This document shows, piece after piece, positions 18,419-21,772 of a stretch of 64,000 nucleotides of DNA. The notes beneath the pieces are model-generated. The model was not told the origin of the DNA and ran no database searches. It worked only from the letters and a program-made list of their open reading frames with translations. This DNA comes from Pelagerythrobacter marinus (GTDB lineage: Bacteria > Pseudomonadota > Alphaproteobacteria > Sphingomonadales > Sphingomonadaceae): positions 1 through 64,000 of the forward strand of contig NZ_WTYO01000001.1 of assembly GCF_009827515.1 (NCBI RefSeq), read 5' to 3'. Each line of letters opens with the position of its first letter. Position 1 is the stretch's first letter. Both the position numbers and the translations under genes were made by a program.

Positions 18419-19455
18419 CCGGCGGCGAGCGGGCGCTGTTCGGCAAGGCCCATCGACACCAGCAGCGGCTCTTCCCCCTGCCGCGCCTTGAACGCGGCCT
18501 TGTCGCCCATGCCGCGCCAGCCGGCGAGCACCAGCGACTGCGCCACCGCGCCGCCCAGCGTCGCGCCCGGGCCGGTGACGATGAACACGTCGGGCGCGAA
18601 TTCGCGCGCGGCGACGGTAATCGCGCGGGTGAAGTCGTAACTGCGCGTGACCTGGTGGCCCAGGGTATAGTCGCGCAGCGCCCCCGCATCGGTCGCGCCG
18701 GGCCACCAGATCGCCCCGCGCCCGTCGATCATCGGCAGGGCGGGCTGGGCGAACAGGCCGGGGCCCAGCGCCGCGCGCCCGCGCGCCGCCACCGGTTCCT
18801 GCAAGGCGGTGTGGAAGGCCGCGTGATTGCCCAGCCGCATCGGGAAACGCCCGTCGACCGGCTCGACCGCGCGTTCGAACGCTTCCAGCCCGGCGGCGTT
18901 GCCGGCCAGGACCAGCATTCCGCCCAGATCGATCGACAGCGCCAGTGTGTGGCCCGCGCGTGCGTCGATCTCCGCCACCATGGCCAGCAATTGCGCCTTG
19001 CGCGCCGGGTCGGGCCGCCAGTCCTCGCCCAGGAAGGGGTGGACCAGCTGGCCGCCGATCAGCGCCTCCTGCATCAGCGTGCCCATCGTGTTGGCGATGG
19101 CGAAACCGTCTTCGGGCGATGTCGCCCCGGCGCAGGCGAGCGCCGAATACCAGCCCATCGAATTGCCGGTGACGGCGACGATCTCCACCCGGTCGCGGTC
19201 GATCGCGAGGAAATCGCCCAGCGTCGCGGCGTAGATCAGGGCGGAGGCATTGTCGCCGCGGGTATGGCGCGCGAGGCTGAACCGCTCCGCCCCGTCGAGC
19301 GCGCTCAGGCTGTCCTGCCCGGCCGCCTCGCGCTGCGCGTCGAAGGCCGCCAGCAGGCGGGCATCGGGGAAATCGCGGGCGAGATAGCCCAGCTCCGCCT
19401 TGTTGTAGGTGCCGCGGCCCGGGCACACGACCACGGCGGTCCTGCGCCGGCTCAT
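18412..19455 (-). CDS. FabD-like acyltransferase domain protein
   Basis: A 347-residue protein resembling malonyl-CoA:ACP transacylases. It begins V-V-V-C-P-G-R-G-T-Y-N-K, has the nucleophile elbow VTGNSMGWYSALACAG with serine in G-N-S-M-G, and N-H-A-A-F-H-T with a histidine in the position of the catalytic pair. The usual GQGSQ opening of FabD is replaced by CPGRGTY. Its ATG overlaps the stop of the 2-oxoacid dehydrogenase E1 gene by four bases, so the two are co-translated. This suggests that the acyl group formed or processed by E1 is loaded onto a carrier protein; no carrier protein gene is nearby. Confidence 0.8.
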   Translation of the reverse strand: MSRRRTAVVVCPGRGTYNKAELGYLARDFPDARLLAAFDAQREAAGQDSLSALDGAERFSLARHTRGDNASALIYAATLGDFLAIDRDRVEIVAVTGNSMGWYSALACAGATSPEDGFAIANTMGTLMQEALIGGQLVHPFLGEDWRPDPARKAQLLAMVAEIDARAGHTLALSIDLGGMLVLAGNAAGLEAFERAVEPVDGRFPMRLGNHAAFHTALQEPVAARGRAALGPGLFAQPALPMIDGRGAIWWPGATDAGALRDYTLGHQVTRSYDFTRAITVAAREFAPDVFIVTGPGATLGGAVAQSLVLAGWRGMGDKAAFKARQGEEPLLVSMGLAEQRPLAAGQ

Positions 19456-21641
19456 GCCGCGTCCCCCGCCAGCGCCCGCGCCGCGGCGACGATCCCCTCC
19501 ACGCCCGGCATCGTCGCGGCATAGGCCGGGCCGGTGGGGATGAAGCTGTCCTCCGCACAATAGCGCGCATGCGGCCTGCCGCCGCGTTCGGCCATCAGCG
19601 CCATCAGCGCTTCGGCCAGGCCGCCGGTGCGCCGCGTCTCGTCCACCACCAGGACCCGCGCGGCATCGCCGATCGCGTCGATCAGGGCATCGGCGGGCAG
19701 GGGATTGAGCCAGTGCAGGTCGATCACCCGGCTCGCGATTCCCGCCTCCGCCAGCCGCTTCTGCGCCTGGAGCGAAAGATGCAGGCCGTTGGCATAGCTG
19801 ACGATGGCGAGATCGCGCCCGTCGCCGTGGGTGGTCACTTCGCCCAGCGCGATCCGTTCGTCCGGGGCGGGATAGCGGCGCAGCCACAGGCCGTCGCCCG
19901 GCTCGTGCAGGTCGCGCATCGGGTAGAGCGCGATCGGTTCGAGGAACACGACCAGCCGCTGTTCCTCCCGCGCCAGCCGCACGCATTCGCGCAGCAGCCT
20001 GGCCGCGTCGGCCCCGTTGGAGGGGCAGCACAGGATCACGCCCGGCACGTCGCGCAGCGCGGCGAAGGAATTGTCATTGTGGAAGTGCCCGCCGAACCCC
20101 TTCTGATACCCGAGGCCGGCGATCCGCACGACCATCGGGTTGGTGTATTGCCCGTTGGAGAAGAACGGCAGCGTCGCCCCTTCGCCGCGGATCTGGTCTT
20201 CGGCGTTGTGGTAATAGGCGAGGAACTGGATTTCCGGGATCGGCAGGAAGCCGTTGTGCGCCATCCCGAGGCCGAGGCCGAGGATCGACTGTTCATCGAG
20301 CAGGGTATCGATCACCCGCGCCCGGCCGAAACGCTGGCCCAGTTTCTGCGTCACGCCATAGACGCCGCCCTTGGCGCAGATGTCTTCCCCCATCAGCGCG
20401 ATCTCGCGGTGTTCCAGCATCAGGTCGGTCAGTGCCCAGTTGATCAGGCGGCTCATGATCTGGGGGCTTTCCATCGCCTTCAGGTCGGCCCCGAAGGCGT
20501 CCGCGCGCGCTTCGGCCGAAGGGCCGTTGCCCGGCGCATGGGCGCGCGCGGGCGGGACCAGGCTGGCCATGACCTCGCCCGCCGTTTCCAGCCGCGGGCG
20601 GGTGACCGCCTCGGCCCGCACGCGCTCGACCCGTTCCAGCGTCTGCTCGTAGATCGCCAGCGCCTCGGCCGGGGACAGGGCGCCCGCCGCGTCCAGCAGG
20701 CGGACCGAATGGAGCAGCGGGTCGTTCGCCTCTTCCGCCTCCACCTCGTGCCGGGCCATGTAGGTCGTCGGCATGTCGGCCCCGGCATGGCCGTGGAGGC
20801 GCACCGTGCGCACGTGGAGAAAGGCCGGCTTGCGCCGCGTGCGGACATGTTCCGCCGCCGCGCGGGCGGTGGCATATGTGTCGTAGATGTCCAGCCCGTC
20901 GCAGGCGAAATAGCCGAGGCCGGGGCGGTTCGCGAAACTGGCGGCGATCCAGCCCGCCGGGGTCCTGGTCGAAATGCCGATCCCGTTATCCTCGCACACC
21001 CACAGCAGCGGCATCGGCACGTTCTGGAACGCGGTCCAGCAACTGGTGTTGATTGCCCCCTGCGCGGTCGAGTGGTTGGCGCTGGCATCGCCGAAACTGC
21101 ACATGACGATGCCGTCGTCGGGCAGGGCCTGGTGCTCGGGCCTTACGCGGCGGGCCGGGCCGATCGAATAGGCCGCGCCGACCGCCTTGGGCAGGTGGCT
21201 GGCGATGGTCGACGTCTGCGGCGGGATATTGAGCGCCTTCGAGCCCAGGACCTTGTGCCGCCCGCCCGAGATCGGGTCTTCGCGCGAACAGGCGAAGCTC
21301 AGCAGCATGTCCCAGAGGATCGACTGGCCGGGCACCTGGTTGGCGCGCTCTATCTGGAACGCGGCATCGCGGTAATGGAGGAAGGCCATGTCGCTCGGCC
21401 GCAGCGCGGCGGCGACCGCCGCCATCCCCTCGTGGCCGGAAGAACCGATGGTGTAGAACCCTTCGCCCGCCGCCTGCATCCGCCGGCTGACGATATCGAG
21501 CGCGCGCGTCAGGCACCCCGAACGATAGAGCTGCACCGCCGCCTGCGGCTCCAGCGGCCCGCCCGGCGCCCGCCCCTGCGGAAGGTCCCCCGCGGCCACC
21601 CGGCGCAGGAAGTTCTCATGCACGATCGAAGCGCGATCCAT
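19452..21641 (-). CDS. Fused alpha/beta 2-oxoacid dehydrogenase E1, thiamine-diphosphate dependent
   Basis: A 729-residue protein joining both E1 subunits. The alpha half (1-360) has I-G-S-S-G-H-E-G-M and the thiamine-diphosphate motif starting G-D-A-S-A-N-H-S and ending W-V-C-E-D-N-G-I-G-I-S-T. The beta half (about 420-729) has LMGEDICAKGGVYGVTQKL, R-V-I-D-T-L-L-D-E-Q-S-I, and a C-terminal transketolase domain with V-L-V-V-D-E-T-R-R-T-G-G. It decarboxylates a 2-oxoacid such as a branched-chain one. No E2 or E3 gene is present nearby; instead the next gene is an acyltransferase. MDRASIVHENF is taken as the start. It could work as a stand-alone decarboxylase or borrow a distant E2. Confidence 0.88.
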   Translation of the reverse strand: MDRASIVHENFLRRVAAGDLPQGRAPGGPLEPQAAVQLYRSGCLTRALDIVSRRMQAAGEGFYTIGSSGHEGMAAVAAALRPSDMAFLHYRDAAFQIERANQVPGQSILWDMLLSFACSREDPISGGRHKVLGSKALNIPPQTSTIASHLPKAVGAAYSIGPARRVRPEHQALPDDGIVMCSFGDASANHSTAQGAINTSCWTAFQNVPMPLLWVCEDNGIGISTRTPAGWIAASFANRPGLGYFACDGLDIYDTYATARAAAEHVRTRRKPAFLHVRTVRLHGHAGADMPTTYMARHEVEAEEANDPLLHSVRLLDAAGALSPAEALAIYEQTLERVERVRAEAVTRPRLETAGEVMASLVPPARAHAPGNGPSAEARADAFGADLKAMESPQIMSRLINWALTDLMLEHREIALMGEDICAKGGVYGVTQKLGQRFGRARVIDTLLDEQSILGLGLGMAHNGFLPIPEIQFLAYYHNAEDQIRGEGATLPFFSNGQYTNPMVVRIAGLGYQKGFGGHFHNDNSFAALRDVPGVILCCPSNGADAARLLRECVRLAREEQRLVVFLEPIALYPMRDLHEPGDGLWLRRYPAPDERIALGEVTTHGDGRDLAIVSYANGLHLSLQAQKRLAEAGIASRVIDLHWLNPLPADALIDAIGDAARVLVVDETRRTGGLAEALMALMAERGGRPHARYCAEDSFIPTGPAYAATMPGVEGIVAAARALAGDAA

Positions 21642-21701: not shown

Positions 21702-21718
21702 GGTGCCGGCGCTAGCGC

Positions 21719-21772
21719 GGGGCGGCCCGGGGCGGCCCGGGGCGGCCCGGGGCGGGGGGGGGCTAGGGCGAT
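21719..21772. repeat. Perfect GC tandem repeat, 10-base unit
   Basis: The unit GGGGCGGCCC is repeated four times and ends in a run of G (about eight) on the plus strand. It overlaps the stop codon region of the DUF4038 gene (stop at 21763). It consists only of G and C, has potential for four-stranded DNA and slippage. Confidence 0.85.

Follow-up and report, generated by a model that had tools for sequence, protein, structure and literature searches.

The first 64,000 nucleotides of contig NZ_WTYO01000001.1 of the alphaproteobacterium Pelagerythrobacter marinus (assembly GCF_009827515.1), referred to here as the window, carry two overlapping genes. The upstream gene encodes a fused, thiamine diphosphate (ThDP)-dependent E1, in which the alpha and beta parts of a 2-oxoacid dehydrogenase E1 form one chain; the downstream gene encodes a small acyltransferase-like protein (AT). 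The pair is conserved well beyond the window, and in relatives it is linked to genes of lysine and 2-oxoadipate breakdown. It is probably a bacterial version of the step that forms glutaryl-coenzyme A (glutaryl-CoA), with an unusual acyl-transfer partner.

The argument for the substrate comes from the genes that accompany E1. A scan of genome contigs gave 341 relatives of E1; locus counts refer to the best 80 of them. The counts of AT and of the linked genes were made by tblastn and depend on the bit thresholds chosen, and gene names for which no domain or structure search is cited were assigned by eye. A glutaryl-CoA dehydrogenase gene (GcdH, at least 330 bits) lies immediately upstream of E1, in the same orientation, at 40 of the 80 loci. 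An aminoadipate semialdehyde dehydrogenase (AASADH) is found nearby at 17 loci, a saccharopine dehydrogenase-like gene (SDH) at 11 and an aspartate aminotransferase-like gene (AspAT) at eight; at least one of GcdH, AASADH and SDH is present at 48. The GcdH of locus L068 matches the glutaryl-CoA dehydrogenases 3GNC and 1SIR, which we take to be the bacterial and the human enzyme, at 625 and 623 bits, and all 40 upstream GcdH proteins have the motif DSGYRS, whose arginine presumably binds the carboxylate of the glutaryl group. The one AASADH tested (L045) exceeds the NCBIfam cut-off for L-piperidine-6-carboxylate dehydrogenase (815.6 against 730), and the two SDH-like proteins tested (L045 and L070) have both saccharopine dehydrogenase Pfam domains above cut-off. 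Bacterial saccharopine genes were reportedly treated by Neshich in 2013.

The order of these genes varies. It is AspAT, GcdH, E1, AT, AASADH, SDH in four alphaproteobacterial operons (L026, L029, L031, L045), GcdH-E1-AT in Gammaproteobacteria and Sphingomonas, and SDH-AASADH-aminotransferase-E1-AT at L070; AASADH and SDH are divergent at L048, and in a Legionella adelaidensis record (L102) GcdH follows E1, without AT. Since the gene orders differ, the association of E1 with lysine genes does not rest on a single inherited operon. An even sample of the phylum has GcdH within ~9 kb at 15 of 29 E1 loci, and immediately upstream at ten. It is only in relatives that E1 is linked to genes for the reactions on either side of 2-oxoadipate dehydrogenase; the conversion of 2-oxoadipate to glutaryl-CoA is the step for which these operons have no gene, and E1 would start that step. 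At five AT-less loci (L154, L155, L156, L157, L161) the distance from E1 to an upstream GcdH is 3-8 kb; at L154 and L155 genes that look by eye like a GNAT acetyltransferase and a glutathione S-transferase stand between the two, in the same direction.

The 40 neighbour families that recur most often at the 80 loci (read by eye and clustered from open reading frames of 80 or more codons, rarer neighbours being annotated in part) contain no E2 or E3, no carrier-protein, biotin or lipoyl gene, no mdc-like family and no branched-chain family. An initial annotation of the window had offered, as an example of an unusual route, the priming of a carrier protein with a branched acyl group. Neither half of that suggestion is supported: the branched-chain role was rejected, the recurrent neighbours indicating glutaryl-CoA and lysine/2-oxoadipate breakdown, and nothing resembling a carrier is among the 40. 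The same annotation would have been refuted by E2 and E3 adjoining the pair in relatives. Neither looks to be among these 40 families; the AT-less locus L160 has sucB- and lpd-like genes ~5 kb away on the opposite strand.

In 76 of the 80 relatives the gene directly downstream of E1 is AT; 58 of these 76 pairs overlap, 43 of them by exactly 4 bp. A pair confined to the window would have refuted the initial annotation, and this is not the case; chance or artefact is ruled out as the source of the pairing. One of the four relatives without AT (L062, identical with the E1 locus of genome G330) is uninformative because its contig ends within E1. In the window's family, 25 of 149 genomes have E1, and AT is present in 23 of these 25 and in none of the 124 that lack E1; all AT-bearing genomes being E1-bearing, AT depends on E1 in this sample. 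The two E1 genomes without AT are G237 and G330, the E1 of the latter being cut at a contig end. E1 itself is patchily distributed: it occurs in three of the 190 genomes of a class sample, the window's own counted, and in 29 of the 398 genomes of the phylum sample, where AT stands beside it in 16. Viral contigs scanned for relatives of AT contained none. The 4-bp overlap in the window suggests that translation of the two genes is coupled.

The domain order of E1 is that of an alpha-beta fusion: PF00676 (E1_dh) at residues 41-350, PF02779 (Transket_pyr) at 398-571 and PF02780 (Transketolase_C) at 600-705. These Pfam profiles score 95.1, 73.4 and 61.9 bits, each over its cut-off, which places E1 by its domains with the pyruvate dehydrogenase (PDH)/branched-chain 2-oxoacid dehydrogenase (BCKDH) type. 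The NCBIfam equivalog cut-offs for PDH E1 are missed (126 against 454 and 101.6 against 411.35 bits), and no E2 or E3 gene was seen on reading the genes called at 12-32 kb of the window. The initial annotation's description of a fused E1 that overlaps an acyltransferase with G-N-S-M-G, with no E2 or E3 adjoining and in a gene order unlike that of PDH and BCKDH clusters, accordingly holds. So does its view of AT as FabD-like: the AlphaFold model of AT (mean predicted local distance difference test score, pLDDT, 94.3) has the fold of FabD, the malonyl-CoA:acyl carrier protein (ACP) transacylase (MCAT), with FabD 3k89 as the top structural match (Z 34.5, root-mean-square deviation 2.7, 300 aligned residues; several FabD rows are tied within Z 1). 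Every NCBIfam and Pfam family that AT matches stays under its cut-off: 50 bits against 297.9 for MdcH, the best NCBIfam match, 43.1 against 260.9 for FabD and 12.7 against 32.7 for PF00698.

Conserved residues were counted over 93 rows of E1 (92 distinct sequences), with and without AT, and 87 rows of AT (85 distinct; one doublet pairs the window with part of its own genome). His89, His129, Lys130, His478 and Arg485 of E1 are identical in 93 of 93 rows, whether AT is present or absent. In the alignment His89 is opposite a Tyr and His478 opposite a Phe of Thermus E1b (1UM9), and the His129-Lys130 loop adjoins a gap, making its pairing with 1UM9 uncertain. From the alignment we infer a more basic pocket that would fit a dicarboxylic substrate. 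In the ThDP/Mg motif Gly184-Asp185 is kept and the first Asn of the E-N-N of 1UM9 is Asp218 (E-D-N) in all 93 rows; this Asp could still bind metal. AT, by alignment, has the Ser-His dyad of FabD (Ser99, within the G-N-S-M-G that begins at Gly97, and His215). The arginine of FabD is another matter: Arg117 forms a salt bridge with the malonyl carboxylate (PMC4207774), and AT has Met124 in its place. FabD Gln11 is likewise replaced, by Arg in all 86 AT rows that have the position, and FabD His91 by Asn in 87 of 87. Because Arg117, the defining residue, is replaced by Met, AT is probably not a malonyltransferase, and its annotation as one is probably wrong. Plasmid records name AT 'ACP S-malonyltransferase' in three of three cases; they describe E1 only as 'thiamine pyrophosphate-dependent enzyme' or 'alpha-ketoacid dehydrogenase subunit alpha/beta' in four of five, the fifth being unannotated there.

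Features of the E1-AT pair in the window (positions in the 64,000-nucleotide stretch)
Feature	Positions	Strand	Basis
Fused ThDP-dependent E1 (alpha+beta), proposed 2-oxoadipate dehydrogenase E1, 729 aa	19452-21641	(-)	Open reading frame, ATG start, Pfam domains
Acyltransferase (AT) of predicted FabD fold, putative dedicated partner of E1, 347 aa	18412-19455	(-)	Sequence, predicted fold
4-bp overlap of E1 stop and AT start (ATGA)	19452-19455	(-)	Sequence
AT codon Ser99 of G-N-S-M-G, aligned to FabD Ser92	19159-19161	(-)	Ser in 87/87 rows
AT codon His215, aligned to FabD His201	18811-18813	(-)	His in 87/87 rows
AT codon Met124, where FabD has Arg117	19084-19086	(-)	Met in 87/87 rows

Between the start of E1 and the upstream gene, window positions 21715-21760 hold GC-rich short direct repeats (CCGGGCCGCC).

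A mechanism can be proposed along the following lines. E1 would decarboxylate 2-oxoadipate on ThDP, and the glutaryl group would then reductively acylate a borrowed lipoyl arm, that of the E2 of a housekeeping 2-oxoacid dehydrogenase. AT would take the glutaryl group from there onto its serine, by means of the Ser-His dyad, and hand it on to CoA, and in this way would substitute for the E2 catalytic core that is missing; the product would be the substrate of glutaryl-CoA dehydrogenase. The parts of this scheme are not equally secure. The neighbouring genes make it quite probable that E1s of this family act on 2-oxoadipate, and the window's own copy probably does so too, with somewhat less assurance. 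If E1 does act on 2-oxoadipate, the chances that AT is a glutaryl transferase to CoA, with a lipoyl arm as the presumed donor, are about even. The combination of all three (E1 acting on 2-oxoadipate, a borrowed lipoyl arm, AT passing glutaryl to CoA) is the best explanation that we can offer and is put forward tentatively, at rather less than an even chance. The version in which AT is a dedicated glutaryltransferase ('E2a') that replaces the acyl-transfer half of E2, with glutaryl passing to CoA from the borrowed lipoyl arm or straight from E1, is possible but somewhat doubtful. The human case offers a precedent for borrowing: E1a works with the E2 (E2o) and E3 of 2-oxoglutarate dehydrogenase (OGDH), and no glutaryltransferase gene of its own is known in the part of the source drawn on here (PMC8146983).

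Several observations weigh against this explanation. Half of the loci (40 of 80) have no GcdH within the DNA at hand, 24 of the 80 being without full flanks. Chance linkage was judged by simple arithmetic alone: a gene would lie within 10 kb of another in fewer than 1% of genomes of 3-4 Mb. AT is absent at 13 of the 29 E1 loci of the phylum sample and at seven E1 loci examined individually. Five whole genomes from among these seven contain elsewhere only matches at the level of FabD (29-31% identity, three genomes) or none (two); that search covered these five genomes and a 451-kb record of Legionella adelaidensis, the Nonomuraea record (over 8 Mb) being left out. Since AT is missing from several E1 loci, the chemistry of E1 can run without it. 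At L090 and L091 E1 is even adjacent to GcdH without AT, and nothing above the level of FabD is found genome-wide there; AT would therefore be helpful and not essential. That some lineages do without AT is the chief obstacle to the proposed mechanism: either some other transferase, such as an E2 core, can do its job there or AT only edits. Because the AT-less rows L037, L040, L044, L090 and L091 nest within AT-bearing groups of the E1 tree (L040 and L091 with the AT-bearing L048), the tree reads as several losses of AT; the two outermost, long-branched rows (Legionella and Nonomuraea), the placement of which is unsure, also have no AT at the locus.

The window's own genome adds to these difficulties. 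Its two GcdH genes both lie away from the pair. It has no match to AASADH (E <= 1e-130), which is found in four of the 25 E1-bearing genomes of the family and 15 of the 124 others, none to an SDH-like gene (E <= 1e-30), which occurs in three of the 149 family genomes, none of them with E1, and none to 3-hydroxyanthranilate dioxygenase, present in three of the 149, one with E1. A tryptophan/kynurenine source of 2-oxoadipate was rejected on this last count. GcdH is present in 22 of the 25 family genomes with E1 and 91 of the 124 without, with no clear association. Co-occurrence of E1 with GcdH or AASADH across the family was discarded as proof of a lysine role, GcdH being common and AASADH not associated, so that only linkage carries the lysine argument; among the best 80 relatives, no Erythrobacteraceae locus has GcdH. 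Three genomes with the pair (L096, L095 and L099, that is, G256, G298 and G328) have no GcdH at E <= 1e-120; glutaryl-CoA, if made there, needs another fate. Since neither the upstream-pathway genes nor linkage to GcdH is found, the function proposed for the window's copy rests on homology and identical checked residues. Its E1 shares 78% identity with the E1 of Sphingomonas Root710, which lies in a GcdH-E1-AT row, and falls in a 23-row set of the E1 tree, with starred support, together with those of Sphingomonas Root710, SRS2 and Tropicimonas, all GcdH-E1-AT.

As to a lipoyl donor, lipoyl or biotinyl domains occur at eight places in the window's own genome, including proteins that read as the E2s of other complexes. 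In the same genome (G000:C8, ~257.6-259.8 kb; L114:7609-9807) a gene for a stand-alone 79-aa lipoyl-type protein (PF00364) stands ahead of E1 alpha and E1 beta, here two separate genes; by eye, no gene for an E2 catalytic core is visible in 16 kb, and acyl-CoA dehydrogenase-like and CoA-transferase-like genes lie around. This locus may encode a further 2-oxoacid dehydrogenase without an E2, and it might supply the lipoyl arm for the window's E1. One of the two GcdH genes of this genome (G000:C8, ~90-93 kb; L092:6206-9047) is in a row with maleylacetoacetate isomerase- and fumarylacetoacetase-like genes (by eye).

The main rival to a transferase role keeps the substrate and changes the job of AT: E1 would rely on a borrowed E2 to make glutaryl-CoA, like its animal counterpart, and AT would be a thioesterase with an editing role, clearing wrong or stalled acyl groups from lipoyl arms or CoA. 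Trans-AT polyketide synthases are known to include hydrolases of the FabD fold, AT has lost the carboxylate-binding arginine of FabD, it is dispensable beside GcdH-E1 at L090 and L091, and the checked residues of E1 are the same with and without it. The confinement of AT to genomes with E1 and the 4-bp overlap are explained at least as well by a committed partner, and we consider editing unlikely. It is also unlikely, by a similar reckoning, that the pair of the Erythrobacteraceae was recruited for some other 2-oxo acid and that the lysine role belongs only to its relatives. The missing AASADH, SDH-like and linked GcdH genes just described speak for recruitment; the sharing of every checked residue between the window's E1 and the GcdH-linked E1s, the close kinship with the Sphingomonas Root710 protein and the retention of two GcdH genes speak against it.

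Two further schemes were weighed. The carrier idea of the initial annotation can be adapted so that AT loads glutaryl onto ACP, for example to feed pimelate and biotin synthesis, in keeping with the FabD fold and the ACP-transferase kin of AT. Agrobacterium makes pimeloyl-ACP through BioZ from glutaryl-CoA linked to lysine degradation, but the substrate of BioZ, in the part of that report drawn on here, is glutaryl-CoA and not glutaryl-ACP (PMC7645780). The recurrent neighbours, moreover, are GcdH, AASADH and SDH and not ACP or biotin genes, and this scheme seems improbable. About equally improbable is that E1 works without any lipoyl arm, decarboxylating its substrate while AT or some other oxidant captures the acyl group directly. 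The lack of a recurrent lipoyl gene and the position of AT directly behind E1 would suit it. Formation of the acyl group needs an oxidant, however, and we know of no redox cofactor carried by the FabD fold; the eight lipoyl or biotinyl domain places offer arms to borrow, and E1s without AT persist.

A search of the literature (titles and abstract openings, subscription journals lying mostly outside it) found nothing on this pair or on any bacterial 2-oxoadipate E1 of this type; one paper retrieved concerns 3-oxoadipate, in the part drawn on here, and has no bearing on the pair (PMC9873259). E1 is a candidate gene for glutaryl-CoA formation from 2-oxoadipate in Alpha- and Gammaproteobacteria, many of which live in the sea. 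Should AT indeed replace the E2 core, this would amount to a new design for a 2-oxoacid dehydrogenase, and a simple bacterium could then be used to test where the missing glutaryltransferase activity resides.

Set beside known systems, E1 shares its domain order with the BCKDH and PDH E1s (1UM9, 1IK6, 1DTW), and the His of its G-H and F-H-N stretches align to His in 1UM9; it differs in its fused alpha and beta parts, in having no E2 or E3 seen nearby, in missing the NCBIfam cut-offs and in having His89 and His478 where 1UM9 has Tyr and Phe. AT shares its predicted fold and, by alignment, its Ser-His dyad with FabD (1MLA, 3K89), from which the replacements at Arg117, Gln11 and His91 and scores far under the FabD and Pfam cut-offs set it apart. 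MdcH, the epsilon component of malonate decarboxylase, is its best NCBIfam match, yet that cut-off too is missed and no mdc-like family recurs among the neighbours. We know of no 2-oxoacid dehydrogenase complex with a FabD-fold partner such as AT. HglS (DUF1338) of Pseudomonas putida likewise acts on 2-oxoadipate in bacterial lysine breakdown, but it is an Fe(II) oxygenase and its product is 2-hydroxyglutarate instead of glutaryl-CoA, as far as the part of the source drawn on here goes (PMC7286885). The nearest parallel is human DHTKD1 (E1a). DHTKD1 is an E1 of the OGDH type, whereas the window's E1 is an alpha-beta fusion of the PDH/BCKDH type with a FabD-fold partner. The part of PMC8146983 drawn on here makes no mention of such a partner for DHTKD1; it has DHTKD1, with borrowed E2o and E3, catalyse the reaction proposed here, at the same place between aminoadipate and GcdH and with no dedicated lipoyl E2. 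By analogy, we think, E1 and AT would work like DHTKD1 and E2o.

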